The position numbers were made by a program, and so were the translations under genes. A stretch of DNA of 59,065 bases, taken from NCBI GenBank assembly GCA_027062325.1, contig JAMOTN010000003.1:1-59065 (forward strand), given 5' to 3'. The notes beneath the pieces were generated by a model that was given only the letters and a program-made list of their open reading frames with translations, did not search any database and was not told where the DNA came from. This stretch comes from a bacterium. GTDB taxonomy: Bacteria > JAMOTN01. Shown here one piece after another: positions 15,886 to 44,260 of the stretch (positions are counted from its first letter, which is position 1; each line of letters starts with the position of its first letter).

Positions 15886-17526
15886 TTAGAAGTTCACGAC
15901 AACTTCGCAGCGTACATCGGTGTAATCCTGTCCCTGATCTCCACCGCTTGCGTCATCGTCGAAGGTGTAGTTTCTTACTTTAAGCTTCAAGTTGACGTGC
16001 TTGCTGTACTTGTAAGTTACGATTCCCTGGAATGCGTCGTGCTCTGCATTCAAGAATGCCTTGCTGTCGCTATCGTTGTTTTCAAGGCTTACGTAATCCA
16101 AACGAAGGTCGCACCTATCGTTTATCTTCTTAATAACTGTTACGTCATGTGCCTTGATGTTTGTGAGGTAGTCAACGTAGTTGTAACCTGCTGCAGTGTG
16201 TACCAAGTAGTAGCTCATAAGAAGATCATCGTTCTGAGCAGACTCGTGGTGAAGTCTGTAATCAGCTGATCCACCAGTCATATCAAGCCCGAAGTGCTTG
16301 TCACTCTTTGCAAAGTAATACTGGAACTTCCAATCGTCCTTGTAGTTTGCACGGAATCCAATCTTGAACATGTTACCCTCATCAACGTCACCAGATGCAA
16401 GCCCTGTAAGGTTTCCTTTAACAGTGGCAACCTCTGCATTCATGTAATCAGCATACTCTCTCTCATCAACATTCTCCTTGATAAAGCTTCCGAACAAAGT
16501 AAAGTTGTAATTATCACTTGCCTTCAATTCAAAGTCCAAACCAGCGTAATTTGGGCTAATTCTCTCATTGCTGGTATGATCATCTATTCTTGCAAAGTAG
16601 TAACCTCTGATGAAGTACTTCTCTCCTTCCTTGCTCAAAGCTGCGTAGTATGCATCAAACATGTTGTTGTCTGGATTAGAGATTGCTAATTTCTCGTCCA
16701 TTCTAATTGCTGCCAAGGTAAGACCAAGCTTATCTGCATTTGGCTTATTCTTGAACTCAACCACAAAATCTGGACGGTTTGCAAACAACGTTCCATCACC
16801 AATTCTGTAAATCCAGCGTCCAAGTTTTAAACTACCCCAGCCAAAAATCTCCTTAAGGTTAATGTATGCATCCAACATAGTAAATTCTTTGCTAACACTA
16901 TCCTCATCCATCATACCGCTCCAGAACTGATCTTTCAAGTTGTCGTCAAAGTTTCCGTTGGAAACATATCCGCTTACACATACATCAGTTTTCTCATCCA
17001 GATCTTTCTTAACCTTCAAGGTCCAGTCAATCATTGCACCCTGAAGAGTTGGCTCATCTACAGTCCCACCCTGAACCTTCTTACCATCAAAGCTTCTTGT
17101 AAGGAATACTGCTCTGACTCTGTGCTTAAACTCTGCTCCACCGGTTCCGCCAACTTTCATCTTTGCAACATCTTTCTTCAAGTTTGCAAGCTCATCTTCC
17201 AAAGTGCTTACCTTAACACCCAAAAGGCTAAGCTCGTCTGCAAGCTCAACAGTAAGTTTTTGAATAGTTGCATAATCCTCATCACTCAACTTAATCTCGC
17301 CACTTTTTACCTCATCAAGAACTTTTACCAAAATCTTTGCCAACTCGAAACGGGTAACTGGCTTATTACCCTTGAAAGTACCATCAGGATAACCCTTCAT
17401 GATACCCTTCTTAGCAAGCTCCATAACTGCTTTGTAAGCCCAGTGACTTGCTGGGACATCTCTGTAACCTGCACCAAACGTGACAGCTGCAAACATAAGC
17501 AAGACTACCAAAACCAGCTTCTTCAT
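15886..17526 (-). CDS. SLH-domain outer-membrane porin
   Basis: A 546-residue protein with a signal peptide (MKKLVLVVLLMFAAVTFGAG), one SLH domain (about 20-82, with YRDVPASHWAYKAV and KGYPDGTFKGNKPVTRFE), a coiled-coil spacer (about 95-125), and a long region rich in aromatic and charged beta strands ending in VVVNF. A terminal aromatic residue and this layout are typical of Omp-alpha/SLH porins of diderms such as cyanobacteria, Synergistota and Thermotogota. The SLH domain binds peptidoglycan or its attached polymer and the barrel lies in the outer membrane. Start 17526 is chosen for the signal peptide and an AAAGGAGGT site. It is a single-gene unit with its own terminator and a structured 5' leader, consistent with abundant expression. 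Confidence 0.88.
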   Translation of the reverse strand: MKKLVLVVLLMFAAVTFGAGYRDVPASHWAYKAVMELAKKGIMKGYPDGTFKGNKPVTRFELAKILVKVLDEVKSGEIKLSDEDYATIQKLTVELADELSLLGVKVSTLEDELANLKKDVAKMKVGGTGGAEFKHRVRAVFLTRSFDGKKVQGGTVDEPTLQGAMIDWTLKVKKDLDEKTDVCVSGYVSNGNFDDNLKDQFWSGMMDEDSVSKEFTMLDAYINLKEIFGWGSLKLGRWIYRIGDGTLFANRPDFVVEFKNKPNADKLGLTLAAIRMDEKLAISNPDNNMFDAYYAALSKEGEKYFIRGYYFARIDDHTSNERISPNYAGLDFELKASDNYNFTLFGSFIKENVDEREYADYMNAEVATVKGNLTGLASGDVDEGNMFKIGFRANYKDDWKFQYYFAKSDKHFGLDMTGGSADYRLHHESAQNDDLLMSYYLVHTAAGYNYVDYLTNIKAHDVTVIKKINDRCDLRLDYVSLENNDSDSKAFLNAEHDAFQGIVTYKYSKHVNLKLKVRNYTFDDDASGGDQGQDYTDVRCEVVVNF

Positions 17527-17554
17527 AAAAGAAGCCACCTCCTTTGCTGGTTTT

Positions 17555-17609
17555 GGAGCCCTGCCGTCCGGTAAGCCGTCCTCGGTTTTCCTTACCAGAC
17601 GCGAGCTCC
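17555..17609 (-). promoter_or_regulatory. Structured 5' leader RNA of the porin
   Basis: On the minus strand an outer 5-bp stem (17605-17609 with 17555-17559) and an inner 10-bp stem with one G-U pair (17591-17600 with 17566-17575) are separated by an asymmetric internal loop (4 and 6 nt). The 15-nt terminal loop can form a further CCG/CGG mini-stem. No T-run follows, so it is not a terminator. It ends about 28 bases before the start codon. I could not match it to a named riboswitch class. It may control translation or stabilise the message. Confidence 0.55.
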
Positions 17610-17693
17610 TTTTTTCATCAGTTAGTTTAGCCAAAACTCGTTCCTTTTGCAAGTGTGCCACTTCCCAAAATAGCAACTTTTCATATTAGATTT

Positions 17694-17858: not shown

Positions 17859-19322
17859 ATGCAGGGAGTAGTAAAGAGGGTTACAATCCACGACAAGCAA
17901 AATATAGAGGTGAAATTTGAATACCTTTCAAACCTTGTAACAAACAAAGATACTTACCGCATAGATATGTTTTTCTTTATTCCCAAGCAACTTGAGGTAA
18001 ATGAATCAACTTATCCATCCTCTACTTTCTACAACGACACAAAAACCTATACTCGATTAAAAGAACCCGTTTTAGCCCTTGACAGAGTTGCAGATAAAAA
18101 CTGTAAATTTTCTCCGCTCGCTCGTCTTCATGAAATATTAGAATATCCGAACAGCTTTGATCCCAAGATAATAACAAAGGAAGTTAAGCTTTACGGAGTA
18201 ATAGTCAAAGCAAGATTGAGAGAACTAGAAGACACCGTGTTAGATGAATTGCTTCCAAAGGGAAAAGAGTCCACAATTCTTCATATAATTGAAGAGACAT
18301 TTGAAAATTACATGAAAGCCTCTCGTGAATTCCGTAATTTAAAGGACCTATTTTCATCACAGTACCCGCTATACTCCGGCGAAGTACAAGAGGCCTTTGA
18401 AATTGTTGACGACTACACAAGTGCTATAGCAGAGGGTGTCTTCGCAAAACTAGCCAAATATCTATCAAAATCAGAAAAATTTTACGGTATATTCAGTCAA
18501 ATTGCCGATTTCTTTCAGAAAGAAGACACCTATAGGCGTAGTAAAAATTATAAACTCATAAAACCCTCAAACCCCAAACAAGCTGAAAATTACACTCACA
18601 TCTTAAGCGTGTATAAAAAGTACATATCTTCAGTTTTATTCTTAGATACTCAGCAGAATCAAAAGTACGCAGGATTTATCCACCTTATTGCTGCAGTGGC
18701 AGCAGCCCTTGCCATGCTTGCATACCTTGTGATAACTCTTCCTTACTCTGGAAGTAGTGCAGCTGTGTTGACAATTCTAACTCTGAGTTACGTACTAAAA
18801 GACAGAATCAAAGAAGTTGTGCGCCTTAAACTGTCACCCTACTTACTACGCTACTTTCCAGATCACGAAGTAAAAGTTTTAGATCAGCAAACCTCAAGCG
18901 TAGTGGCAGTTTGCCAAGAAAAGATAAAATTCTTAAACTTTGAAGAGCTGGAAGAAGCTATTAAAGCCGCGCGACAACCATTTTTGACAGCATCTCAAAT
19001 TCAACTTCAAGAGGAGATTATGCAATTCTCAAGGCGTATTACCGTATTCACAAAAAAGATTTTCCAGATACATTCTCGCACTGTAACTTTAACAGACATA
19101 ATTCGCTACAACTTCAGAAAATTTTTGTACAAGATGGACGAACCAGTCGATATTCTGCACTTCTTTGATAAAAATAAGAAAACTCCTACTCAAATCACCG
19201 CCCCACGTGTTTACTTTGTGGATCTCGTACTCAAAATCTCCTCTCACGACCAAACAGTTGTGGAAGTTTACAGAGTGGTACTTGATAAAAAAGGAATAAA
19301 AACTGTTAAGAAGTTATCGTAA
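17859..19322 (+). CDS. Large conserved-looking protein with a central helical hairpin, unknown function
   Basis: A 487-residue protein. An N-terminal polar region (about 1-260) is followed by two adjacent hydrophobic helices (about 271-289 and 295-311), then a mostly helical, charged C-terminal region. The start ATG has TAGGAGG upstream. It ends two bases before the stop of the convergent pseudokinase gene. No catalytic motif or named domain was recognised. The monotopic or two-pass layout suggests a cytoplasmic-facing membrane protein. It is transcribed divergently from the porin. Confidence 0.65.
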   Translation: MQGVVKRVTIHDKQNIEVKFEYLSNLVTNKDTYRIDMFFFIPKQLEVNESTYPSSTFYNDTKTYTRLKEPVLALDRVADKNCKFSPLARLHEILEYPNSFDPKIITKEVKLYGVIVKARLRELEDTVLDELLPKGKESTILHIIEETFENYMKASREFRNLKDLFSSQYPLYSGEVQEAFEIVDDYTSAIAEGVFAKLAKYLSKSEKFYGIFSQIADFFQKEDTYRRSKNYKLIKPSNPKQAENYTHILSVYKKYISSVLFLDTQQNQKYAGFIHLIAAVAAALAMLAYLVITLPYSGSSAAVLTILTLSYVLKDRIKEVVRLKLSPYLLRYFPDHEVKVLDQQTSSVVAVCQEKIKFLNFEELEEAIKAARQPFLTASQIQLQEEIMQFSRRITVFTKKIFQIHSRTVTLTDIIRYNFRKFLYKMDEPVDILHFFDKNKKTPTQITAPRVYFVDLVLKISSHDQTVVEVYRVVLDKKGIKTVKKLS

Positions 19323-19324
19323 AA

Positions 19325-20455
19325 TCAAAAGAAAAGTATCCACATCAAGGCGAATAAAATTGCAACCCCACTTCCCAACAAGATGAGCAAAATTTTATCA
19401 AATGCTGAATTCTCTGAAGAAGATATAGTTATACCACCAGAACTGCCCCTTGCACTTTCCTTCCTTTTTCCTGCTTCTTTTTTTTCAGTATTCAACCTGG
19501 CAATTTGACCTTCTTTAGCACTATTTTCTAAAGATTGTGAATTTCTAGGGGGAGCAGATAGTGTAATCGAAGTATTCTCCCGACCACTTATCCCTTTATT
19601 TACTCCTTTATTTACTCCTTGTTCATTCATCTCTCCTTTAAATTCCATGTTTACTTTTTCTTTTTTTTCAAAGTTTTTATTTGGAGTTTTACTTGACTGA
19701 AGAGCTTGATGGCTGCTCTTTGCTCTTTGCTCTTCTCTTACTTCTTCAACCTCTGCCATCTCAACTATTTGAAATGCCATATCCTTTAACTTTGAATAAT
19801 CAAATTCATCCGAGTACCTATCAAAAAAAGCCACAACATCTTCTAACTTCTTACCACCTTCAACAGCTTCAACTACAAACTTCTTCCACCTATTAAAGTG
19901 CACCCCCAGCTTTCCCTTTAGAAAATCCAAACCTTCTAAAACCTCATTTCTCCTAACCACAAGTTTTCCGCTCATCAAACTAACAACAACTGCAGTAGTA
20001 AAAAAAACAACTCCTTCTTCACTCTCTTCATCTTCTGAAAATTTCAACACTTTTAAATTTAAGTGAGTATCAAAAAATACATCCTCCATCTTTACAGCTC
20101 GAAGTTTATTCTTATCTCTTAAAGCTTGGAAAAGAGATGCAAGTTGTCGTCCCACACGAGCTGCAATAAGCGGAGCAAATTCTTCCCCTTCTGAAAGAAC
20201 CGAAAAGAGATTTTCACCTTCAAATGGAAGCAGCACAACATAGGGAACCTTAGCACGTGCAACTTTTACCACTTCTACAACCGAAGGATGCTTTATCTCT
20301 GCAGTAATTTCAAACTCCCGCAAAATCTTCTCGCGCATCTTATCAGATAGAAAATTTTGAAGAAAGAGTATCAAAACATTTGAATCTCCAAATTTTCCTT
20401 CGTGCCATACAAACCTATCGTCAACTGCTACCTTTTTACCGACTTTAAATTTCAT
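19325..20455 (-). CDS. Membrane-anchored pseudokinase (degenerate Ser/Thr kinase fold)
   Basis: A 376-residue protein with a kinase-like N-terminal region, a low-complexity Ser/Lys/Asn linker (about 240-345), and a C-terminal transmembrane helix (about 355-372). EFEITAEIKHPSVVEVV resembles the helix C/HPNIV region, and LRAVKMEDVFFD sits where HRDIKPENIL is expected, followed by LKVLKFSEDEE where the DFG loop is expected. The catalytic Asp, the DFG Asp and the ATP-binding Lys are not seen, so activity is unlikely. It lies directly after a PASTA protein and rlmN, where many bacteria encode PknB. Start at 20455 (ATG) is preferred, with GGAGGA about 13 bases upstream; GTG 20476 is an alternative. 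Confidence 0.65.
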   Translation of the reverse strand: MKFKVGKKVAVDDRFVWHEGKFGDSNVLILFLQNFLSDKMREKILREFEITAEIKHPSVVEVVKVARAKVPYVVLLPFEGENLFSVLSEGEEFAPLIAARVGRQLASLFQALRDKNKLRAVKMEDVFFDTHLNLKVLKFSEDEESEEGVVFFTTAVVVSLMSGKLVVRRNEVLEGLDFLKGKLGVHFNRWKKFVVEAVEGGKKLEDVVAFFDRYSDEFDYSKLKDMAFQIVEMAEVEEVREEQRAKSSHQALQSSKTPNKNFEKKEKVNMEFKGEMNEQGVNKGVNKGISGRENTSITLSAPPRNSQSLENSAKEGQIARLNTEKKEAGKRKESARGSSGGITISSSENSAFDKILLILLGSGVAILFALMWILFF

Positions 20456-20495
20456 ATTACGATCAAATTCCTCCACTCTAGAAATTAGCTACTCC

Positions 20496-21458
20496 TTACT
20501 CACTTATCCTCTTTTCCTGAACAAGAATACCATCCACATAAACAAGTATCGTGCAACTTCCAGAGTATTTAATATCAACAGCTATGCTCTCCGATGGATC
20601 TCTAACCGAATCGTATATAACTTTTACTCCATTATCATCAACTTTGAGTATCTTAACTTCTTTAGGAAGAGAGCCAGATGGCACTGTAAAAGTGAAGTGA
20701 TAAACTTTACCACGTGCAATTTGTTTACCCGCAACAACAACATCCACTGCGGAATTTTGCTGTAAAATTGTCTTCGCCTCTGGCATCTGAGCAAGTACCA
20801 TTCCTTCAGGATACCTATCGGTTTTTTGATAAAGAATTCGTCCAAGTTTTAAATCCAAGTTCTTCAACTTTTCTGTAGCTTCAGATAACATAGTGCCTAT
20901 TAGATTTGGAACAGCAACAAGATACGGGGGATAATCACTCGCTACAAGTAAGTCAACGCTCTCTCCCTCATAAACCTTGGATCCAGGCTTTGCCGACATG
21001 GCAATAACACTTTGATCAGGATACTTGTTGCGCCATATGTTATCAGTTTTAAGATAAGTTATATTTCCAACCTTTAAACCAAGTGAGTTCAATTTCTTTA
21101 CAGCATAAGACAAAAGTTTTCCACGTAGATCTGGAACAAGTGCTTTTTCTAATCCTTTTGAAAGGACCACAAAAACACGCCTTCCCTTTTTTACTTCTCG
21201 TGAAGCCTCAGGATACTGCTTTATCACCACACCTTTTGGATACTTGTCATTGTACTCCTCTCCTTTAAAGACGAAATTAAGGCCAATGGAATTCAAACGC
21301 TGAGCTGCCTCCTTCCAGTAAAGTCCCACCAAATCCGGCACCAACACTTTTGCAGGGCTAAAAAATGCATCTAGAAAGTACTTTGCAGTTACGAAAGACA
21401 ATTGAAGAGTTATCAAAAGAAGCAGAAAGTACTTTATTATGGCATAAAATTCTCGCAA
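20496..21458 (-). CDS. Single-pass PASTA-domain protein
   Basis: A 320-residue protein with one N-terminal transmembrane helix (about 8-28) and three PASTA repeats (each starting VPDLVG / VPDLRG / VPNLIG, at about residues 40, 109 and 183), then a beta-rich C-terminal domain (about 250-320). PASTA domains bind peptidoglycan stem peptides or beta-lactams and are usually on the outside part of PknB kinases or of penicillin-binding proteins. Here they lack a kinase or transpeptidase domain. Start is TTG 21458 because a strong GAGAGGTGG site precedes it; GTG 21467 is an alternative. It is co-oriented with rlmN (13-base gap) and the pseudokinase gene. Confidence 0.85.
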   Translation of the reverse strand: MREFYAIIKYFLLLLITLQLSFVTAKYFLDAFFSPAKVLVPDLVGLYWKEAAQRLNSIGLNFVFKGEEYNDKYPKGVVIKQYPEASREVKKGRRVFVVLSKGLEKALVPDLRGKLLSYAVKKLNSLGLKVGNITYLKTDNIWRNKYPDQSVIAMSAKPGSKVYEGESVDLLVASDYPPYLVAVPNLIGTMLSEATEKLKNLDLKLGRILYQKTDRYPEGMVLAQMPEAKTILQQNSAVDVVVAGKQIARGKVYHFTFTVPSGSLPKEVKILKVDDNGVKVIYDSVRDPSESIAVDIKYSGSCTILVYVDGILVQEKRISE

Positions 21459-21471
21459 AGTTACCACCTCT

Positions 21472-22521
21472 CTAGTTTTTCCCTCTCTTCCATGCAAGCT
21501 GTCCGCACGCCAGGTTTTCACTCTTTCCCTGCGACCAACGTATAGTAACATTTAACCCCGCCTTTTTTAGAATATTTGCAAAAGTTTTAATAGTGCTGTA
21601 ACCCGGAGCCTTTAAATCTACCCCAGGGACAGGATTATAGGGAATTAAATTAACGTGCACATCCTCAAAGAACCGCAACAAACTCACAAGGCGCCCTGCA
21701 TCATCCGGAGTAGAATTTACTCCTGCTCCAAATAAAATGTATTCAATAGACACACGACGCGAGGTCTCCATGTAATAATCATAAGCTGCATCTAACACAT
21801 CCTTTATTGAAGCACGGACTCCCGGCATGAACGAACGACGCATTTCATCACTCGTAAAGTGCAAAGAAACAGCGAGGCGTGGCTTTACACCACTTCTTGC
21901 AAGCTGTCTTATTTTTGAAGGAATCCCAACAGTTGACAACGTCACATGTCTCATACTGATTCCACAATTTTTCTTAAGTTTTTTTAAAAAGTCCACAGTT
22001 TCAGAGTAATTCAAAAGTGGCTCTCCCATTCCCATTAAAACTACGTTTTTTAACTTATTCCCCACAATCCTTTTGGCAATCAAAAAACTTTGTATAATTT
22101 CCGAAGAAGTCAAATTTCTTTTGAATCTCTTACCAGAAGCACAGAATATGCACCCAACTGGACAACCAACCTGTGTTGAAAGACAAACAGTAGCATAATT
22201 TCTCCTCTCTAAAATCGGAACTTCAAACAAATAACCGTCAGGAGTCTCAAGAAGCAACTTTTTTGTCTGCTCAGCAACATCCACACAGTCTTTAACTTCA
22301 AGAGTGTAGATAGTGAGCTTCTCCCTCAAAATTCTACGCAACTCCTTCGACAAGTCTGTCATAACGTCAAAATTATCTGCAAGCTTTTCATATATCCATT
22401 TTCTAATCTGGCGCATGCGATAAGCTTCATTATGGCACTTGAAGCATTCCTCAATATCCTCTTCTGCTGCGAAAAAGTTAAGCGCTCCTCTTTCTTCTAA
22501 ACACTGCAACAAAGTATCCAT
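21472..22521 (-). CDS. rlmN: 23S rRNA A2503 / tRNA A37 C2-methyltransferase RlmN
   Basis: A 349-residue radical-SAM enzyme that methylates C2 of A2503 in 23S rRNA and A37 in some tRNAs. The radical-SAM cluster motif is CPVGCIFC (C, C and C, about residues 119-126). The two enzyme cysteines that take part in methyl transfer appear consistent with ECFKCHNEA near the N-terminus and a Cys close to the C-terminus. ALNFFAAEEDIEE and NLIPYNPVPG are family-typical. ATG 22521 has GGAGGAGAT upstream and overlaps the end of rsmB by 44 bases. The operon order (fmt, DUF116, rsmB, rlmN) is shared with many bacteria. Confidence 0.95.
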   Translation of the reverse strand: MDTLLQCLEERGALNFFAAEEDIEECFKCHNEAYRMRQIRKWIYEKLADNFDVMTDLSKELRRILREKLTIYTLEVKDCVDVAEQTKKLLLETPDGYLFEVPILERRNYATVCLSTQVGCPVGCIFCASGKRFKRNLTSSEIIQSFLIAKRIVGNKLKNVVLMGMGEPLLNYSETVDFLKKLKKNCGISMRHVTLSTVGIPSKIRQLARSGVKPRLAVSLHFTSDEMRRSFMPGVRASIKDVLDAAYDYYMETSRRVSIEYILFGAGVNSTPDDAGRLVSLLRFFEDVHVNLIPYNPVPGVDLKAPGYSTIKTFANILKKAGLNVTIRWSQGKSENLACGQLAWKRGKN

Positions 22522-23788
22522 CCCAATCTCCTCCCGGGAATACTCTGACCCAATTTACTCCAAACTCTGCCAAAGCAAATTCTGTAGGATCCTTCAAAAA
22601 TTTCAAATTTTTCTCGAAATTAACAGGTATAAAATCGGCATTTTCTCTTAAAAACTCCGAACATACTGCAATTGTCTCCTCTCTCAACATACTACAAACT
22701 ATGTAAAATAGCACACCAGAAGGTTTCACTAACTTTGAAGCCGCTTTAAGCATCTCAAGTTGAGAGGCAGCCGCACTATTTACCAAACCACGTGTTATTT
22801 TATATTTAACCTCTGGATGTCTTCTCACAAATCCAGCATGAGTGCATGGCAAATCTGCAATGACCACATCAAATTTAGCTTTCAAAGGAAGTTTTTGGGC
22901 ATCAGAGCAGATAATATAAGCATTATCAATTCCATAATTTTTAAAATTTCTCTTCAACACAAAGCACTTTTCAAACTTGTTGTCGTTTGAAAAAACATGG
23001 GATACATATTCAGAAGCTATCATACTCTTACCACCTGGAGATGCTGCAATATCCAACACATTTGAACTATCATCCAAGAAACGATCAAATAAACGTTCCA
23101 CAATGTAAGTTGACAAACTGGTTATGTAATATCCAGAGTTTGCAATTTTTTCAACACTATAACCTCTCTCAACTTTTCTAGAAAATTTCACTCTATACCA
23201 ACCCGAAAAGACCTCTGTCAAAGCCCCAGTATGCGCTAAATCAACAGAATTTTTCATTTTCCTTGCAAATACAGGAATCTCCTCGTTAAACTGTCTTAAT
23301 ATCTTATCTCGGTTATTCTCAAAAAACGCATCACTTTTTAAAACATCCAAAAAAGGTTGAGGAATACTGTAGAATACACTATCATCAAACTCTTTCTCTA
23401 AATCTTCCAAGTTCAGGGCAGAAGCACGTCTCAATACAGCATTGAAAAACGATGTTAACCATATCCAGCGCCCTTTTACTATGCTCACTGCAACATTTGT
23501 AACGTGCACAGCCTTAAAGCGCGCAAATAACATCAACCACATTGCAACTTTCAAAAGCATTCGAGCAACTCTTTTTATCCTAACCTTTCCACGCTTACTC
23601 AACCTTTTGATAAGCACATCAAGAAGAATACTATTTCTCAAAACACCGTAAAAAATTGAGACAACCAAACCTTTATCCCACTCACCATCTTTTAATCTAT
23701 GGCGTAAAAACAAATTAGAGAAACCTTTTTTTTCATCAAACTCAGCTAATAATTCAGCTGCTTTTAACATAGTACTCTCAAGCTTCAC
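22478..23788 (-). CDS. rsmB: 16S rRNA m5C967 methyltransferase RsmB (Sun)
   Basis: A 436-residue SAM-dependent methyltransferase that modifies cytosine 967 of 16S rRNA. An N-terminal NusB-like helical domain (about 1-150) is followed by the Rossmann methyltransferase. SAM-binding motif: VLDIAASPGGKS near 244-255. Motif IV is DLPCTHAGFVRRHPEVK near 315-331 with its Cys, and the catalytic Cys is in IVCSMLREE near 369-377. Start is GTG 23788 with GGGGGGAT upstream; an ATG at 23770 is possible. Overlaps DUF116 by 11 bases and rlmN by 44, so translation is probably coupled. Confidence 0.93.
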   Translation of the reverse strand: MKLESTMLKAAELLAEFDEKKGFSNLFLRHRLKDGEWDKGLVVSIFYGVLRNSILLDVLIKRLSKRGKVRIKRVARMLLKVAMWLMLFARFKAVHVTNVAVSIVKGRWIWLTSFFNAVLRRASALNLEDLEKEFDDSVFYSIPQPFLDVLKSDAFFENNRDKILRQFNEEIPVFARKMKNSVDLAHTGALTEVFSGWYRVKFSRKVERGYSVEKIANSGYYITSLSTYIVERLFDRFLDDSSNVLDIAASPGGKSMIASEYVSHVFSNDNKFEKCFVLKRNFKNYGIDNAYIICSDAQKLPLKAKFDVVIADLPCTHAGFVRRHPEVKYKITRGLVNSAAASQLEMLKAASKLVKPSGVLFYIVCSMLREETIAVCSEFLRENADFIPVNFEKNLKFLKDPTEFALAEFGVNWVRVFPGGDWDGYFVAVFRRKRSA

Positions 23789-24488
23789 TCACATCCCCCC
23801 TACTATGCTCTGGGGAATTGGACAAATCCTCAACCTCTACAACATCTTTTAAAATTTTTTCAATCTCTTCTACATCCACAATAGTATTGATACACGGCCC
23901 CTCCGGCCTTTCATTAATAACTCCGTATACCGGTATTTGCAAGACATCTGCCATTCCAGAAGCAAGATCTCGCTCACAAGCAACGGCAACTATTAATTTG
24001 GGACGTGTGGCTTTAACAACATTTCTTGCAGCAGTTCCACCAGAAACTATGGCGCACAAAATATTATACCTCTCAACCACTTTTCTTAAAGCCGATACAT
24101 CACACTTCCCACAGTGAGCACAGTTTGATAAATCCGGCTTTAAACGAATAGTACAAAAACTCTTTTGCAAACAATGCGGAAGTAGTAACAGAACTTCATG
24201 GGGCTTGAACTTCTTTCCTCTTATTCTTTCAAGAGTTATCTGATTAATTTTTTCTATAAAAAACTTTTCTCCCTTCTCACCAAGTACTAATCGCAACACA
24301 TGATAAGCAGCCGAGAACATAATAACATCAAATTTGCTAAACTTCTCACTCTTAACAGAAAAAAACACCTTGAACGGTGCAAACACAACAAGAGCAAGTA
24401 AAATCCTGTAAAGCTTTCTGAACAATAAAACCGCCAATATGAGAGGTGCAAATACTACTATAAAAAAGGTAATTCTAGAAAACTCCAT
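23778..24488 (-). CDS. DUF116 protein
   Basis: A 236-residue DUF116 protein with an N-terminal hydrophobic region (about 5-45) and a cysteine-rich segment (LSNCAHCGKCDV, about residues 127-138) that could bind metal, followed by GGTAARNVVKATRPKLIVAVACERDL near 155-180. The function is unknown, but DUF116 genes commonly sit with fmt, rsmB and rlmN, as here. GGAGG precedes the ATG. It is predicted to be membrane-associated. Confidence 0.85.
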   Translation of the reverse strand: MEFSRITFFIVVFAPLILAVLLFRKLYRILLALVVFAPFKVFFSVKSEKFSKFDVIMFSAAYHVLRLVLGEKGEKFFIEKINQITLERIRGKKFKPHEVLLLLPHCLQKSFCTIRLKPDLSNCAHCGKCDVSALRKVVERYNILCAIVSGGTAARNVVKATRPKLIVAVACERDLASGMADVLQIPVYGVINERPEGPCINTIVDVEEIEKILKDVVEVEDLSNSPEHSRGDVSEA

Positions 24489-24520
24489 CTAATCCTCCTT
24501 TAAATAAACAGTTTATTAGT

Positions 24521-25582
24521 TCAGTCTCGGCTTCTAAAACTTTCGAATTTATCACCAACTTGTACTCTGTATCCATTGATAAAGTCAAGAGATTTTAGCG
24601 CTTTTTTACCCTCAGGTAAAACCTCCATAAACTTTAAAAAACCACGTTTACAAGCAACTATAAGTCCCCTTTTTTTGTCAGCAGCAATAACTCGGCCGGG
24701 CTCGCTGCTTTTTTCTGTTATTCCTTCAACCTCTTTCAATGCCACCGCTTTCAAAACTTTTAAAAGTTTTCCCTTGTAATTGGTGCGCGCCCATAAACTA
24801 CCGTAAAATGCCCTAATAATTCTCTCATCTTGCGCAGCATCCTCAAAGCGTAAATAAGCATCCTCTTTTACATACTTGTAGCAGAAGGTTGGCTCCCCAA
24901 TCTGAGGCTTCAAGTCAAATTTACCCTTGCTGTAACCTTTTAAACACTCAGCCACTTCTTCAAAGGTATCTTTGGTAAGCTCTTGAATTTTAACTCTCAA
25001 ATCAAGAGCAGTCCAATAAGGCAATATATCAAATTCTTTTCTGTAGAGAATATCTCCCGCATCAAGCTCCTTCACCATTTTAAATACACAAAGCTCGCTT
25101 CTATCAAAACCTTGAAGGATCGAAGTCTCTATCGGCGTGGCCCCCCTGAGAAGAGGAAGCGGTGATGGATGCCAGTTGAACCACCCGAATTTCACCGCAT
25201 TTAAGAAGCGATTTGGTATAAGCTTTCCGAACGAAAAGACAAACACAAAATCGAGCTTTGTAAAGTCTACTACTTTCTTAATTTGAGCATTTGAAAGAAT
25301 GGGGGGGAACTTTAACTTTTTATCAGTGTTTTTTAGTTCCTCTATATCAAACGCCGCAAATTCTGATGGACTTTTTTTCTTAAAAGTGTCAACAAATACC
25401 ACATCAACTTTTTTTTCAACTGCAGCCTGTGTTAACTCTGTAGGCCTTAATTTCTTACCACGCCCCGCAGGCTTGGGAGGTGCTGTTAATACAAATTCAA
25501 TGTTAAAGTCAGGATGATTATACACAGCTTCAAACAGAGCAACCGATAAAGAACAACTCCCCGCAACAGCAACCTTATACAC
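24521..25582 (-). CDS. fmt: Methionyl-tRNA formyltransferase
   Basis: About 353 residues. Formylates initiator Met-tRNA using 10-formyltetrahydrofolate. The N-terminal region (AVAGSCSLSVALFEAV) and the folate/formyl core NWHPSPLPLLRGATPIETSI (about residues 139-158) contain the conserved Asn-His pair, and the downstream DAGDIL segment supplies the usual Asp. The C-terminal OB-fold domain starts near residue 220. The start is GTG 25582, chosen because AAGGAG lies eight bases upstream; GTG 25591 would overlap the site. It overlaps def by eight bases, the usual def-fmt arrangement. Confidence 0.94.
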   Translation of the reverse strand: MYKVAVAGSCSLSVALFEAVYNHPDFNIEFVLTAPPKPAGRGKKLRPTELTQAAVEKKVDVVFVDTFKKKSPSEFAAFDIEELKNTDKKLKFPPILSNAQIKKVVDFTKLDFVFVFSFGKLIPNRFLNAVKFGWFNWHPSPLPLLRGATPIETSILQGFDRSELCVFKMVKELDAGDILYRKEFDILPYWTALDLRVKIQELTKDTFEEVAECLKGYSKGKFDLKPQIGEPTFCYKYVKEDAYLRFEDAAQDERIIRAFYGSLWARTNYKGKLLKVLKAVALKEVEGITEKSSEPGRVIAADKKRGLIVACKRGFLKFMEVLPEGKKALKSLDFINGYRVQVGDKFESFRSRD

Positions 25583-26108
25583 TACCTTCACTCCTTAAAT
25601 ACTCTTCAAGCTTTCCATCAAGGTAGAGTCTCAACAACTTTTCTTTCTTTTCAGACCACTTGTCAGAAACCCTATCTATAAATACTATGCCATCAAGATG
25701 ATCTATTTCGTGGCAGAATGCACGTGCATCAAAGCCTTCTGCCCGCAAAAATATCTCCTTACCACTCAAATCCATTGCTTGAACTTCAACTGCAACAGGA
25801 CGTTCTACCGGCAAAAATAAATTTGGAAAACTCAAACAGCCCTCCTCTTCCTCTTCCACTTCATTTGAAGCCCATATTATCTGAGGATTCAAAAAAGCGT
25901 GTATCACTCCCCTGTCATCCTCCACAAGAATCAATCTCTTGTGCACACCAACTTGAACAGCTGCAAGCCCCTTTCCCCTTTCCCTGACCATTATCTTAGC
26001 CATCTCATCAGCCAAACGCCTCATCTCATCCAGTTCAAAAGAGTAAACAGGCTCACTTGGAGTTTTAAGTCGCTCATCTGGCCATTTTACTATCTCTAAG
26101 TATTTCAT
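25575..26108 (-). CDS. def: Peptide deformylase
   Basis: A 177-residue metalloenzyme that removes the formyl group from nascent N-termini. Motif 1 GLAAVQVG (family consensus GxGLAAPQVG), motif 2 EGCLSFP (metal Cys) and motif 3 HEIDHLDG (two metal His and catalytic Glu) are all present. Start ATG 26108 has GGAGGG six bases upstream; ATG 26114 has none. Overlaps the upstream glycosylase gene by 35 bases and fmt by eight. Confidence 0.96.
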   Translation of the reverse strand: MKYLEIVKWPDERLKTPSEPVYSFELDEMRRLADEMAKIMVRERGKGLAAVQVGVHKRLILVEDDRGVIHAFLNPQIIWASNEVEEEEEGCLSFPNLFLPVERPVAVEVQAMDLSGKEIFLRAEGFDARAFCHEIDHLDGIVFIDRVSDKWSEKKEKLLRLYLDGKLEEYLRSEGSV

Positions 26109-26640
26109 ATACATCCCTCCAGTCGCTACATTTCAAACGAAGCTTTAAATCATCTTTCACTCCAACTCTTCTAATCAACTCCACCTTAACACTTGAAGGG
26201 CGAACTCGCAAGCACTTCAAGTCTAAAATTTCAGACGTTCTAATCCCTGTATGCTCCGGCTTAATTCCTACAATTTCAGATATTGCAGACGGTCCCAACT
26301 TCACCGGTTTATAGTGCTCCTTATTGTTCAACAAATAACCTGCTCTTACAAATATAAAAACATTTCTATCAATGCTTTTTACAAAAACTGTGAAGTTTGT
26401 ACACACTGCCCTAAATATTGAGTAGGCATATATTACACTGTGGGCTGTTTTCAGAAGTTTTTTAGCTTGCTTTCTTTTAAGGTGATGTGAAGAAGGATCA
26501 CCGTCAAAGCCATAAAATTCAAGTTCCGTTAAAAGAATTTTCTCATTTAAAATTAGAGGGACTCGTGAAGAGAAAAACTCAAGTACTGCACGCTCATCGT
26601 CAAAACCTGCATCAATTAACAAGGGCTTAAGTACATTCAT
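26074..26640 (-). CDS. Divergent alkyladenine (3-methyladenine) DNA glycosylase, AAG/MPG family
   Basis: A 188-residue protein. The segment LTELEFYGFDGDPSSHH (residues 37-53) resembles the AAG signature IVETEAYLGxxDPASHA, including the Glu that activates water. HSVIYAYSIFRAVCTNFTVF (residues 67-86) matches GHAYVYxIYGMHYCLNVV, and a C-terminal GPSAISEIVGI block resembles the GPGKLCQALGI block. The family excises alkylated purines and is normally about 190-210 residues, so the length fits. The match is degenerate in places, so activity is inferred. It heads the def-fmt operon. Confidence 0.65.
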   Translation of the reverse strand: MNVLKPLLIDAGFDDERAVLEFFSSRVPLILNEKILLTELEFYGFDGDPSSHHLKRKQAKKLLKTAHSVIYAYSIFRAVCTNFTVFVKSIDRNVFIFVRAGYLLNNKEHYKPVKLGPSAISEIVGIKPEHTGIRTSEILDLKCLRVRPSSVKVELIRRVGVKDDLKLRLKCSDWRDVYEILRDSKMAR

Positions 26641-33046: not shown

Positions 33047-36000
33047 TCACAACTTATTTTTCTGATAAATCTTTTTCAAAGCCTCCGAAGCCTTCTGTCG
33101 TACAAGCCTACTCTTATCCTTTAAAGCCGCTCTAAGCGGCACAATGGCAGCCACATCTCCAATTTCACCCAAACTCCAAGCCGCAGTAGCCCTCACCTGT
33201 TTACTCCTGTCGTTGAGCAACATTGCCAATCCATCAACAGCCTCTCTGGCCCTCATGAGTCCAAGTGCTTTTGATGCAGCTTCTCTAGCATATCGCGACG
33301 GTTCACTTAACATATCTATGAGAAGCGGTACAGCTTCAGGATACTTAAACTTTGCAAGAACCTCTACTGCCTTTTGTCTTATAACCTCCCTCTCATCACG
33401 CAGAGCCGCAACTAAAGGCTTCACTATACTCTTACCCATACGACGCAACACTTCAACGACCTTTCCCTTAAGCTTAGGATCTGGATCATCTAGCATAACC
33501 GTAAGTGGAACAACTGCTCTTATATCTCCTATCTTACCCAGAGCCTCAACAGCAGCAACGCGCACCTCCACATCCTCATCCTTTAGCATTCCTATCAACT
33601 TATCTACCACCTCTTCACTGTTGAGTTCCCCGAGCTTTTCACAAGCAAGCGCTCTTACTTTTGCTGAAGTATCTTCAAGAGCCGACAATAAAATCACAAC
33701 TGCCCTTGAATCTTCTATTTGAGCTATAGCCCTCACAGCTTCCATTCTAACTTCTTCATTCTCATCCTTGAGCATTAAAGCAAGCTGCTCTACATGAGAA
33801 ACTTCTCCAACTTTTCCCAGCACTTTAATTGCCTCTCTTCTAACCGAAGCATCGCTATCCTTCAAAGCAAGCAACAATCTCTTTGCCACATCAGAAGCAG
33901 CCTCTCCTGTTGCCATCTCACCAAGTGCCTTCACAACCTCAAATCTAACAGCATCATCTGGATCCCCCAACAAATTTGCAAGTGCACCAATTGCTTCAGG
34001 ATTTTTCATCTTCCCAAGCAGTCTTATTATAGAAATTCTATTTTCAGCAGCTCCCAAAGCCACAACAAGTTTTCCAACTAACTCTGGATTTTTGCGAGCC
34101 AACAAAGCTTTTTCAACCCATTCTTCACTAACTTTTTCACGTCCCTCTATTAAGTAAGAGAGCAACTTATCCTCCGCATCTTTTAAACGGCTTTTTCCAA
34201 GAGTGTATATGAACCACTTTATTGTTCCCTCATCAGAGTAATCTATCTCCTCATCAATTCTTTTAACCAATTCAGAAAGATTAAAACCTCCAGCTACATT
34301 GGCTACCTGCCTTCTCATTGCCTCAAGAGACTCTCTCAACACCTTCTGAAGGGTGTAATCATATTCTTGAGCTGCTTCCTCAACATTTACCGTATCCCTT
34401 ATCAAACTAAGGAATATCTCAACAGATCTAATATCTCCATTATCCCCCATCAACTCCATCACATCTTTTCTTACCCAGGCCCAATCAAGTGAGTACGACG
34501 GCTTCAAGCTCTCTGTTCTCAAAAAGTGTTCATCTATATCCCACAGAGCATCCAAAAGCTCTTGAGTAACACCTCTTCTCTCTGCCAGCTCCATCAAAGC
34601 CTCTGCAGCCCTTACATCCCTTATCCTGCCAAGAGTTTTTATCAATTCAGTTCTAACCTCATCGTCCACTACATCTAACCTCGAAATTATAGGAATAACA
34701 GCCGGTTCTCCTATCTCAACCAAAGACCAAAGGATTTTCTCGACTAATACTCCTTTTTTTTCACGTTCAATCAAAGCAAGAAGTGGCTCTATTGCTTCTG
34801 CAACCTTTATCTTTCCTAGAGCATTCACAGCTGCAATTCTGACGTCAACCGAAGGATCCTCCAAAAGCTCAATGAGTATTTCAGAAGCTTTCTTAAGCCC
34901 AAGCTCTCCTAAACTCCAACTTGCTGCCTCTCTTACTTCTGGATCAGGATCAAAAGCAGTCTTTGCCAGTGCATCAAACGCCTCCTCATCCTTTATCATT
35001 CCAAGTGCCCTTACTAAACGTATCTTTATCTCTCCCTCAACCTCTTCAAGCTTTCTTACAAGAAACTCCACTGCTTTAGGATCAGCAATTCTTCCAAGTG
35101 CATCAATTGCTCTTAAAACAACCTCTTCATCCTCATCATCTAAAAGTGAAATCAATCCCTCAGTAGCAAGGGGAGACGCAATCTTTCCAAGCGCCTCTGC
35201 AATTGTTCTTCTAAGGTAAAGTCCAGCAGTTGGTAAAACTCTCAAAAGTGGTGTAACTGCCTCTTCCAAACCAAGCTCCCCCAAAGCAGCTGCAGCTGCT
35301 TCTACAACTTCCTGATCCTCATCTTCCAAAAGCTCAATCAACGTTTGTAACGCTTCAGTATCCTTGATCAAGCCAAGACTCTCTGCTACAGCTGCCCTCA
35401 CCATTGGCGACATATCAGAAGCAAGACGGCAAAGATGCGGCACAGCCTCAGTCGCACGTAATAATCCCAAACTCTTAGCAGCAATATATCGTAGATCTTC
35501 ACTCGCCTCTTCCAACATAAGGACAAGCTTTTCTACTGCTTTAGTCTCACCAATCTTTCCTAGTGCTTCTGCAGCTACATAAACTAGATCATCATTTTCA
35601 TTATCCAAGAATTTCATCAACAACTCAGAACTCGCAGGAGAACCTATTTCTCCCAAAGCCTGTATTATTAAGTAACAGGTGTCTTCATCAGTCTCACGCT
35701 TTAATAACTCCATCAAAGGCTGTACAGCCCTGTCATCTTTGATCTTTCCCAGAGCTTCAACAACTGCATCTTTTATATCCTTTTGCGGAACTGAAAGTTT
35801 CTCAATCAAAGCCTCTACAGCCTCTGTTAGGCGCAACTCGCCCGCTTTTAAAATAGCCTCATAAGCTTCATCTTCGTTTTCAGAATTTATAGCTTCAATT
35901 ATACGAGCAGCAATATTTTCTTCTTTTTCTTGAGGTACATATACAACAACATTGTCAAGCACATCTTCCGAGGCTGCTTCTCCAGACTCTTCAACTTCCT

Positions 36001-37513
36001 CTTTAAACTTACTTCGCGTTCTCTCAATAAGCGGTATAACTTCTCCACCCTTCTCTTTAGAACTTTCAGGATCCTCGCTTACAAGCTCTGCCTCAACCTC
36101 TTCAACAATTTCTTCACCCAATTCCTCCTTAGATTCATCTGCTTCCTTTACAACCTCACCTGCGTTTTCTTCTACTAAAATAGCCTCGCTGCTACTTTCA
36201 CCTTCTACTTGTCCTGGCTCCTTACCTGTGTGAGCCTCCGTTTCTTCAACACTTACTCCTTCCTTTTGCTGTATAAACTCAAGCAAATCCTCCCCTGCCT
36301 CTTCGGTAAACTCTAACTCCTCAAAACCAGAATCAGGTTCATTGGGAAGCTCAACAGATTCTTCACCACTCATCTCAGAGCTATCATCAACAAGCAGTTC
36401 CAGTTCCTCTCCTGATGAATCCCCAGAAGCACTTGTCTCTTCTAAGGATAAAACTTCAGCATCTGAACTCTCCTCTAACATCAACTCTTCTCCAGCATCC
36501 AGTGACAACTCAAGTTCTGCTCCCTCATCTGCCTTTTCATCACTTAAAGTTTCCCCACTTAGCAACTCTAAATCTTCTCCTAAATCTCCCACGCCAGCAT
36601 CCGAGACCGTTTGCTTAGTCTCCTCTTCTCCAAGTTTTTCTAAATCAAGCTCCTCTGCACCATCTAAAGACAATTCAAGTTCACTAGAATCCAATTCCAA
36701 ACTTAAATCTTCACCACTTGGGGAGTCGGAAGCATTCTCTTCTCCATCAACAGTTAACTTAACTTCATCTCCACCAAGATCCCCAAGATCCAACTCACCA
36801 TCTAAAGATATCTCTTCTATTCCATGACCTTCACCTGTTTGGCTATCACTTCCTTCCAACTCAAGCCCTAAGTCCCCACCTTCAACATCCAAATCAAGGC
36901 TTATATCTCCTTCACTCAATCCATCATCCGTCAGTTCAAGCTCTATCACTTCTTCAGATGAACTTGAAGCTCCCTCCTGCTCAGTCGCCTCATTTTCCCC
37001 CGATAAATCAAGCTCAACCTCTTCCATTCCCAAATCTGAAATATCCATATCACCAACATCCAAATCCAACTCTATTACATCTTCACCTAAACTTTCAGAA
37101 GCTTGAGCTGTCGACTTTGCCGACTGATCATCTGAGCCTTCACCAGCCTCAACCTTAGTATCTTCTGCGCCAACATCCACATCTAAACCATCAAGTTCAA
37201 GATCACCTAAATCCAAATCAGCATCCAAATCTATTTCTATCTCATCAGTTCCTTCAGAGGCTGCTTCTCCACTCGCCTGTTTTGCGGAAAGCTGATCAGT
37301 AGAACTCTCTGTTCCCACTCCTGCTGAAGTAGCAGAGTCCGCAGCTGTGCCGTCATCTAATCCATCCATTCCTAAATCCAATTCCAAATCTAGATCATCA
37401 ACATCAAGATCCAAATCCAACTCAAGATCTAAATCTCCTCCCAAATCAGCCCCGCATTTTTCACACTTTTTAGCACCTTCCGGATTCTCAGCTCCACACT
37501 TAGGACACTTCAT
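33047..37513 (-). CDS. Zinc-ribbon, acidic and HEAT-repeat protein of 1488 residues
   Basis: Three regions are seen. Residues 1-25 are a double-zinc-knuckle ribbon (CPKCG and CEKCG). Residues about 26-520 are a very acidic low-complexity region of LD/DL/EL/SE repeats, which probably stays disordered. Residues about 520-1480 are tandem HEAT/PBS-lyase-type repeats (AVEALGKIGD-like units of about 31 residues). The HEAT part would form a long superhelix for protein binding. The ATG has GGAGGG upstream and overlaps the PtsI-like gene by 14 bases. No enzyme domain is visible; a scaffold role is likely. The function is unknown. Confidence 0.85.
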   Translation of the reverse strand: MKCPKCGAENPEGAKKCEKCGADLGGDLDLELDLDLDVDDLDLELDLGMDGLDDGTAADSATSAGVGTESSTDQLSAKQASGEAASEGTDEIEIDLDADLDLGDLELDGLDVDVGAEDTKVEAGEGSDDQSAKSTAQASESLGEDVIELDLDVGDMDISDLGMEEVELDLSGENEATEQEGASSSSEEVIELELTDDGLSEGDISLDLDVEGGDLGLELEGSDSQTGEGHGIEEISLDGELDLGDLGGDEVKLTVDGEENASDSPSGEDLSLELDSSELELSLDGAEELDLEKLGEEETKQTVSDAGVGDLGEDLELLSGETLSDEKADEGAELELSLDAGEELMLEESSDAEVLSLEETSASGDSSGEELELLVDDSSEMSGEESVELPNEPDSGFEELEFTEEAGEDLLEFIQQKEGVSVEETEAHTGKEPGQVEGESSSEAILVEENAGEVVKEADESKEELGEEIVEEVEAELVSEDPESSKEKGGEVIPLIERTRSKFKEEVEESGEAASEDVLDNVVVYVPQEKEENIAARIIEAINSENEDEAYEAILKAGELRLTEAVEALIEKLSVPQKDIKDAVVEALGKIKDDRAVQPLMELLKRETDEDTCYLIIQALGEIGSPASSELLMKFLDNENDDLVYVAAEALGKIGETKAVEKLVLMLEEASEDLRYIAAKSLGLLRATEAVPHLCRLASDMSPMVRAAVAESLGLIKDTEALQTLIELLEDEDQEVVEAAAAALGELGLEEAVTPLLRVLPTAGLYLRRTIAEALGKIASPLATEGLISLLDDEDEEVVLRAIDALGRIADPKAVEFLVRKLEEVEGEIKIRLVRALGMIKDEEAFDALAKTAFDPDPEVREAASWSLGELGLKKASEILIELLEDPSVDVRIAAVNALGKIKVAEAIEPLLALIEREKKGVLVEKILWSLVEIGEPAVIPIISRLDVVDDEVRTELIKTLGRIRDVRAAEALMELAERRGVTQELLDALWDIDEHFLRTESLKPSYSLDWAWVRKDVMELMGDNGDIRSVEIFLSLIRDTVNVEEAAQEYDYTLQKVLRESLEAMRRQVANVAGGFNLSELVKRIDEEIDYSDEGTIKWFIYTLGKSRLKDAEDKLLSYLIEGREKVSEEWVEKALLARKNPELVGKLVVALGAAENRISIIRLLGKMKNPEAIGALANLLGDPDDAVRFEVVKALGEMATGEAASDVAKRLLLALKDSDASVRREAIKVLGKVGEVSHVEQLALMLKDENEEVRMEAVRAIAQIEDSRAVVILLSALEDTSAKVRALACEKLGELNSEEVVDKLIGMLKDEDVEVRVAAVEALGKIGDIRAVVPLTVMLDDPDPKLKGKVVEVLRRMGKSIVKPLVAALRDEREVIRQKAVEVLAKFKYPEAVPLLIDMLSEPSRYAREAASKALGLMRAREAVDGLAMLLNDRSKQVRATAAWSLGEIGDVAAIVPLRAALKDKSRLVRQKASEALKKIYQKNKL

Positions 37514-42709: not shown

Positions 42710-44260
42710 TTATTTTTTACCCTCAAAATTGCTTTCAGAAAAGACAAGAGCTTCAAATGCATAAAGTTGGGTATCCTTATCCTGCCATGCATCCGGAGGA
42801 AGCCCTGCTTTGAAACACACGTGTTGCAAAAACTCCTCTCTATCCCACCCCCACTCAACCGGCACTTGCGGCAATAACAATCCAGACTTCCAACCCTTCT
42901 TTATATACAACCCATGCTTTCCCACAATAACCTCTTCAGGACTTATAGGATAAAGAGGAGTAAGAACGGATATTTCTACTTCCAAAGAGGGAAGCTCATC
43001 CAAGGTCACAGGCGGAAAGCGTGGATCGTGAACAGCCGCTGCAATTGCTGCCTCCTGAACTGTTTTCCAAAGAGGTTGGGTTCCTATTATATAGCCTATA
43101 CATCCACGCAGTGCTTTTTCTTTAGGAACTGATCGCCTATTTAAAGTCACAAAAGCACCCGCCTTTTCAAGCACATTTGAACTGAGTTTACCTGCACGTA
43201 CAAGTTCTTCAACCTCTTCAGCAGCGTTGTAAACTTCTCGTGACGACAAATAAGCTTCTATCGTTTTTCTAGCAAGCTCTAAAAGATACCGCTTATCTTC
43301 ATCCGTTAAACTAAACATGGGCACCCTCCTTCCTTTAGCAGTGAATACCAATCCCGCATATCCTACAACACTTGTAGTATCACCAGTAGTATCAGCACTA
43401 GTAGCCGTTGCTACAACCTTTCCTTTACATCCATTGTACAACAATTTGAGTAACTTCAAAGCAACCAAAGTAGCATTTAAACCGCACATTTCAATCTCTC
43501 CAGAACGCGCCAACTTATATAATCCAACTTCATCTAGCTTAACTAGCTTTTCAAGTGCTCTATCATCCATTCTTCTTACAACAGAAAGGGGTTTATAATG
43601 AGCAAAATCACTGCTTATAACTATAAGAGCTCTTTCCTTCTCAAGTGCCTTATAAAGAGCACTTGCAACAACATAAGCCATTTCCAAATCCAACCAGCCT
43701 ACCAACAAAGGCAAAACCTCTATCTCACGCTTAGCCAAATACTGGATAAACGGCAACTCAACTTCAATCGCATGTTCCCTTTCTTCTGCAGGTCTTGCAG
43801 TGGTGAAGTAGCGTTTTCCATACAACCTAGAAGCCAGCCATCCTGCTACCTTAACTTTCCCAAGAGGAGTTGAGTAGTACTCAAATGTTGGCAAAGCCAC
43901 CCCTGTAAAATTTCCATAGTGAGATGGAGCAAGCAACACTACCACATTATACCTTTTCCAATTCACCTGTTTAAAGACTGCAGCAGCCACTTTGCCAGAA
44001 TACACCCAACCAGCATGCGGCACTAAAGCACCTACTATCTTGTCCTTGAAGGTTAGAATTTTAGCACGTGAGGCAAAATCTTCAAGTGCCTTTTCTAGAA
44101 CATCTTTGTCTTTGGGATAAAACATGCCAGCAACAGCAGAGGATCGAGTATTAGATTGGAATACATTACAAGCTGCAAACACTTGAGCAGAGATCACAAA
44201 CTGCAAAACTGCAAAAACTAAAAATATTTTAACTATAAATTTACCTTTATCAACATTCAA
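42710..44260 (-). CDS. Exported Memo-AMMECR1 fusion protein
   Basis: A 516-residue fusion. A signal peptide (about 8-30) precedes a Memo-family domain (about 35-305, with VGALVPHAGWVYSGK, LLAPSHYGN and ISSDFAHY) and an AMMECR1 domain (about 315-510, with CIGYIIGTQPLWKTVQEAA and FPPVTLDELPSLEVEISVL). Memo and AMMECR1 genes are frequently found with a radical-SAM gene (AmmeMemoRadiSam), whose function is not settled. Here both are in one exported polypeptide, and the radical-SAM partner is not in the window. TTG 44260 is the start, with GGTGATGAGAG upstream. Confidence 0.85.
   Translation of the reverse strand: MNVDKGKFIVKIFLVFAVLQFVISAQVFAACNVFQSNTRSSAVAGMFYPKDKDVLEKALEDFASRAKILTFKDKIVGALVPHAGWVYSGKVAAAVFKQVNWKRYNVVVLLAPSHYGNFTGVALPTFEYYSTPLGKVKVAGWLASRLYGKRYFTTARPAEEREHAIEVELPFIQYLAKREIEVLPLLVGWLDLEMAYVVASALYKALEKERALIVISSDFAHYKPLSVVRRMDDRALEKLVKLDEVGLYKLARSGEIEMCGLNATLVALKLLKLLYNGCKGKVVATATSADTTGDTTSVVGYAGLVFTAKGRRVPMFSLTDEDKRYLLELARKTIEAYLSSREVYNAAEEVEELVRAGKLSSNVLEKAGAFVTLNRRSVPKEKALRGCIGYIIGTQPLWKTVQEAAIAAAVHDPRFPPVTLDELPSLEVEISVLTPLYPISPEEVIVGKHGLYIKKGWKSGLLLPQVPVEWGWDREEFLQHVCFKAGLPPDAWQDKDTQLYAFEALVFSESNFEGKK

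Follow-up and report, generated by a model that had tools for sequence, protein, structure and literature searches.

Background

In many bacteria, sensing of the wall by kinases falls mainly to PASTA kinases. In the kinases already known, the PASTA domains bind fragments of peptidoglycan or lipid II. A locus that combines a PASTA sensor with a catalysis-free kinase fold, in a genome where nothing else matches a kinase, would allow sensing and docking to be told apart from phosphorylation, and would thereby bear on how far the role of PASTA kinases depends on catalysis.

Kinase folds that have lost catalytic residues are also described from bacteria. A review that surveys pseudokinase families in bacteria, used here in excerpts (PMC12599244), defines a pseudokinase by the loss of at least one of the beta3 Lys, the Asp of HRD and the Asp of DFG. 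MviN and EssB/YukC are worked-out bacterial examples that act by recruitment, and the pseudokinase of MviN (ActPs3) has a role in wall synthesis (PMC12599244). In SidJ, the Lys that holds ATP and the Asp of DFG are named as repurposed (PMC12599244).

Here we describe a gene pair from a bacterial genome in which a PASTA protein without a kinase is followed by a separate, predicted tail-anchored pseudokinase. It lies in the window, by which we mean the whole stretch of 59,065 nucleotides that was analysed.

Organisation of the locus

The genome (1.65 Mb in 81 contigs, 84% complete) is the only one of its phylum in our genome set. The minus strand of the window carries, in this order and tightly packed, def, fmt, DUF116, rsmB, rlmN, the PASTA gene and the pseudokinase gene. 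The genes from def to rlmN (21472..26114, minus strand; def and fmt named from sequence) are adjacent or overlapping. The PASTA gene (20496..21458, minus strand) starts with a TTG at 21458, the rlmN stop lying 13 nt before it, and the pseudokinase gene (19325..20476, minus strand) starts with a GTG 19 nt past the PASTA stop (an ATG at codon 8 is an alternative). The sequence-only reading from which this analysis started had proposed a PASTA ORF without a kinase and a separate kinase-like ORF after rlmN, and both are present as it described them. Because both ORFs are complete and the pseudokinase stop coincides with the end of its transmembrane (TM) helix, nothing suggests a frameshift artefact. 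The pseudokinase gene occupies the usual position of rpe, which is found here on a different contig.

Convergent with the pseudokinase gene is a plus-strand gene (17859-19322) whose product of 487 aa is hydrophobic in its middle section and has no Pfam or NCBIfam match. Promoter and terminator scans gave no more than chance. The window also encodes a protein of 1488 aa in which an N-terminal zinc ribbon is followed mostly by HEAT repeats (33047-37513, minus strand) and a 516-aa fusion of a Memo-like and an AMMECR1 domain (42710-44260, minus strand).

The PASTA protein (320 aa) consists of an N-terminal TM segment (aa ~5-25), which is its single hydrophobic segment by hydropathy, three PASTA repeats (Pfam, E 2e-42; profile matches at 21156-21347, 20940-21137 and 20730-20918, minus strand) and a C-terminal domain of ~75 aa. 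An SLH-domain porin-like outer membrane protein is encoded at 15886-17676 (minus strand). This suggests a double-membrane envelope, in which case the PASTA repeats would sit in the periplasm. In a scan of a collection of genome contigs, the PASTA protein gave no matches, and RlmN gave only relatives at 37-40%, most of them named as Deltaproteobacteria. Only one other PASTA match in the window's genome is above the cut-off, a lone repeat that closes a long frame; this frame resembles a penicillin-binding protein and adjoins a murE-like gene (named from sequence only).

Fold of the kinase-like protein

The product of the second gene (383 aa) was analysed using its ORF, Pfam, a PDB search, alignments, AF2 and VIA. 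It comprises a kinase-fold domain (aa ~10-226; 19799..20449, minus strand; AF2 with a kinase alignment, VIA), a charged juxtamembrane linker of low complexity (aa 227-359; 19400..19798, minus strand) and the C-terminal TM helix expected from the sequence-only reading (aa 361-383; 19328..19396, minus strand). The hydropathy of this helix reaches 2.67 over 19 residues at aa 362, and the protein ends directly after it.

Several searches place the N-terminal domain among the kinases. Pfam gives a Pkinase match at aa 45-146 (E 3e-5, under the gathering cut-off) and, with E values up to 1 admitted, returns only kinases and Dark_CARD, a chance match. The phmmer match in the PDB is the SNF1 kinase (E 1e-6). 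A profile of twelve bacterial kinases scores the protein at 49.7 bits, whereas among 2000 shuffled versions of its first 250 residues the highest score is 6.1 bits; the 49.7 bits are somewhat flattered, since the kinases in the profile were partly picked by the protein itself, but the margin is still wide.

Structure prediction, which had been proposed as a check, also yields a kinase fold, with PknB nearest, in a manner that depends on the alignment supplied. With 42 kinase rows, AF2 produced a bilobal fold (mean pLDDT 80, pTM 0.76), for which VIA ranked the PknB of M. tuberculosis first (Z 20.2, 2.9 Å over 213 residues). The model contains the N-lobe, alphaC, alphaE, the catalytic-loop strands and alphaF onward, and the activation segment is missing. 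In the linker, pLDDT is below 50 from residue 228 to residue 246, the end of the modelled part. This model is supportive and not independent, because the alignment was one of active kinases and the fold is partly built in. The single-sequence AF2 model (pLDDT 42) is too poor to bear weight; its top Foldseek matches are nearly all kinases, none with E <0.001. EssB and MviN are absent among the VIA structure matches listed, which rules out neither. Sequence and model together indicate a protein kinase-like fold.

Lost and retained active-site residues

In the alignments, the beta3 Lys that binds ATP is replaced by Leu37 (20366..20368, minus strand; VAIK becomes VLIL) and the Asp of HRD by Ala127 (20096..20098, minus strand). 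HRD-LKPEN of the kinases corresponds to R126-A127-VKMED, and the local sequence around the HRD place is KLRAV. The place of DFG is taken by Lys145-Phe146-Ser147 (20036..20044, minus strand), Lys145 standing for the Asp and Ser147 for the Gly. The alphaC Glu is kept as Glu54 (20315..20317, minus strand), as are HPSVVEV and the overall pattern of the catalytic loop. The alignments thus bear out both the three losses and the retained elements (helix C and HPSVVEV) that had been read directly from the sequence. The protein also has no glycine-rich loop and no activation loop or APE, and the activation segment is deleted, since alphaF comes almost directly after the place of DFG. The charged residues R126, K129 and D132 are still found in the catalytic loop, D132 at the position of the catalytic-loop Asn.

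As all three motifs of the usual definition (PMC12599244) are lost (L37, A127, K145), the protein is a pseudokinase. It is not a PASTA kinase of the PknB/PrkC type, which would be a single chain with intact catalytic motifs: here there are two ORFs, and the motifs are gone. With the beta3 Lys, the HRD Asp, the DFG Asp, the glycine loop and the activation loop all lost, its sequence indicates that it is most likely unable to phosphorylate and that it probably does not bind ATP.

An intact PknB encoded elsewhere would have altered the picture, and we looked for one. A profile search of the 84% complete genome found no other Pkinase match. Nor was there a match to the one PP2C model tried, PP2C_2 (PF13672), in agreement with the claim that the usual phosphatase is lacking, or to FHA. 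Classical phospho-signalling therefore seems absent, although a kinase or phosphatase could be missed at this level of completeness and with a single PP2C model.

The same locus in other bacteria

The PASTA protein has matches in 197 of 386 bacterial genomes. Among the best 29 loci elsewhere, rsmB, fmt or DUF116 lies upstream within a short flank in 20, the PASTA gene runs straight on to rpe without a kinase in 24, and a kinase signal is present in one. These counts speak against regarding a PASTA protein that lacks a kinase and follows rlmN as anything exceptional: since this form is common at the locus, the protein is not a PknB defect. Kinase-less PASTA proteins in this neighbourhood are a widespread family, and the window protein belongs to it by its TM segment, its three PASTA repeats, the shared C-terminal region and its neighbours.

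The single exception (L053/L172) is a gene directly after fmt. It encodes a single chain in which a degenerate kinase domain is followed by a TM segment, by three PASTA repeats and by the C-terminal region also seen in the window protein. Counting this one, several bacterial families have, at their fmt/rsmB-rpe locus, single-chain proteins in which a pseudokinase domain, a TM segment and three PASTA repeats are joined (L172:3351-5342, L174:5365-7362, L175:3861-5921 and L176:4610-6679; also L192 and L194). In place of HRD these read HGFL in L172, HNCL in L174, HGLL in L175 and HGQF in L176, and the HRD Asp is also missing in L192 and L194, from two more genomes. L175 and L176 have lost the HRD Asp and kept the other parts, whereas L172 and L174 are far more decayed. 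Active PASTA kinases are found at the same locus in L177 (with rlmN) and L179; across these active and fused forms, fmt or rsmB precedes the gene and rpe mostly follows it. A further set of PASTA proteins has a cytoplasmic N-terminal part of 150-230 aa (L182:161-1663, L183:3944-5440, L178:4406-5722 and L186:4816-6417, that of L183 after rlmN); these parts gave no kinase signal or profile match and, at a guess by eye, may be kinase remnants. The locus thus presents, in different genomes, an active kinase, a fused form without the HRD Asp, a more decayed fused form, a form with no kinase signal and PASTA alone.

These fused forms support the view that inactive kinase domains and PASTA repeats are connected at this locus. 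Between L175 and L176, identity is 51% in the inactive domain, 44% in the PASTA part and 24% in the linker, and from this we conclude that an inactive, PASTA-tied kinase domain has been kept by selection in that lineage.

For the window pseudokinase itself no ortholog was found in the 386 genomes sampled, and the gene may have arisen recently or be in decay. Ordinary kinases (20-35% identity) are the best matches of the protein, and no direct similarity to L172, the fused form compared, is detectable; its inactivation was thus probably independent.

Origin and possible working of the gene pair

The sequence-only reading saw a sensor kinase that had been split and inactivated. Inactivation is borne out by the loss of the motifs. 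A plain split of PknB does not fit, because the PASTA gene comes first and the pseudokinase gene second, and because each protein has a TM helix of its own. Simple fission of a kinase-TM-PASTA gene was rejected for these reasons. Tandem duplication of such a gene, with opposite halves lost from the two copies, or separate recruitment of the pseudokinase, would fit the order better.

We build on the genes themselves, on the fold as given by sequence and model, on the residues that are lost, on the locus and on the fused inactive forms that recur there. On this basis we propose that the pair constitutes a two-piece, catalysis-free PASTA receptor that signals, if at all, by binding; we give this proposal an even chance. 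The two genes would be co-transcribed and their products would act together. The PASTA protein, with a single predicted passage through the membrane, would hold its repeats outside, where they may bind wall fragments, while the pseudokinase would be held on the cytoplasmic side of the membrane by its C-terminal helix. The two proteins would associate in the membrane, and the kinase fold would offer a docking surface, or act as a dimerising scaffold, for a putative cytoplasmic or membrane partner, in the manner of the pseudokinase domains of MviN and EssB/YukC. The process in which that partner takes part, and to which a signal might be passed, could be wall synthesis or division.

The chief rival, which we regard as possible but on the unlikely side, is that the pseudokinase has no connection with the PASTA protein. 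It would then be a membrane-anchored scaffold whose gene was inserted where the operon ends, at the usual site of rpe, and it would serve some other membrane complex, as EssB/YukC does in type VII secretion. Its position is normally that of rpe, which here lies on another contig; most of the PASTA homologues have no kinase-like neighbour; and the TM helices of the two proteins share no sequence (by eye). Moreover, GLW, ActPs2 and ActPs3 are known bacterial pseudokinases with a C-terminal TM segment and no PASTA repeats (PMC12599244). The spacing of only 19 nt to the PASTA gene argues for a connection between the two, however, as does the fusion of inactive kinase domains to PASTA at this very locus in other genomes.

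Those other genomes bear also on an improbable reading, in which the pseudokinase no longer has any function and is what remains, in decay, of an earlier PASTA kinase. They show a graded loss of the kinase domain that ends in PASTA alone, and the window protein is an orphan in which every catalytic motif has gone. Its frame of 383 codons is nevertheless fully open and lies among the closely spaced genes of an operon, its hydrophobic anchor is complete, the AF2 model keeps both lobes, and in another lineage the inactive domain is well conserved at this locus. We consider it highly improbable that the kinase fold has kept or gained a different enzyme activity, such as the AMPylation known from SelO or the glutamylation known from SidJ, by means of R126, K129, D132 or E54. 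Some bacterial pseudokinases do catalyse other reactions (PMC12599244) and charged residues remain in the catalytic loop, but the Lys that holds ATP and the metal-binding Asp of DFG have both gone and there is no glycine loop.

Taking the two-piece receptor together with the fused forms, we tentatively suggest that phosphorylation-free PASTA receptors are a recurrent class. The kinase would have been inactivated independently in several lineages at one locus and kept as a binding module, and the window would represent a two-component wall sensor with a separate tail-anchored protein. As the fused inactive forms (L172, L174, L175 and L176) share the locus, the idea can be tested in more than one lineage.

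Comparison with known systems

Membrane-anchored bacterial pseudokinases and PASTA sensors are each already known. Compared with the open-licence literature searched, it is new that a tail-anchored pseudokinase stands as a separate protein beside a PASTA protein, and that the fmt-rsmB-rpe locus can carry PASTA pseudokinases in fused form: PASTA-linked pseudokinases were found neither in titles and abstracts of that literature nor by a word search of PMC12599244, and the fused forms are not listed in the excerpts of this review.

The kinase-less TM-PASTA proteins of the fmt-rsmB-(rlmN)-PASTA-rpe locus resemble the window protein over their full length, including the C-terminal ~75 aa, and have the same upstream genes; the next gene there is usually rpe, whereas here it is the pseudokinase gene. 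Among pseudokinases, the GLW group of Proteobacteria likewise has the beta3 Lys changed to Leu in a hydrophobic strand and a C-terminal TM segment (PMC12599244), but where that group has GLW for HRD the window protein reads LRA (in KLRAV). EssB/YukC shares with it a cytoplasmic pseudokinase, a degraded glycine loop, a short activation loop and a single TM segment (PMC12599244). Those proteins serve type VII secretion, while the window protein ends at its TM helix and finds only kinases and one chance match in Pfam. ActPs3/MviN of M. tuberculosis is similar, by its description (PMC12599244), in the degradation of all three motifs, the deletion in the activation loop and a TM segment nearby. ActPs3, however, is part of the actinobacterial MviN, and its working involves an FHA partner as well as phosphorylation by PknB; in the window genome neither FHA nor a further Pkinase gave a match.

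With PknB, PrkC and StkP the window shares the neighbourhood of fmt, rsmB and rlmN (L177, L179) and, as predicted here, PASTA repeats outside the membrane and a kinase fold inside. It differs in having two polypeptides, PASTA and then the kinase fold, each with a TM helix, in the loss of the catalytic residues and in giving no PP2C_2 match (one model, genome 84% complete). The fused forms L172, L174, L175 and L176 have likewise lost the HRD Asp and carry PASTA repeats of the same family at the same locus; they are single polypeptides, and the beta3 Lys that L172, L175 and L176 have kept is lost in the window.
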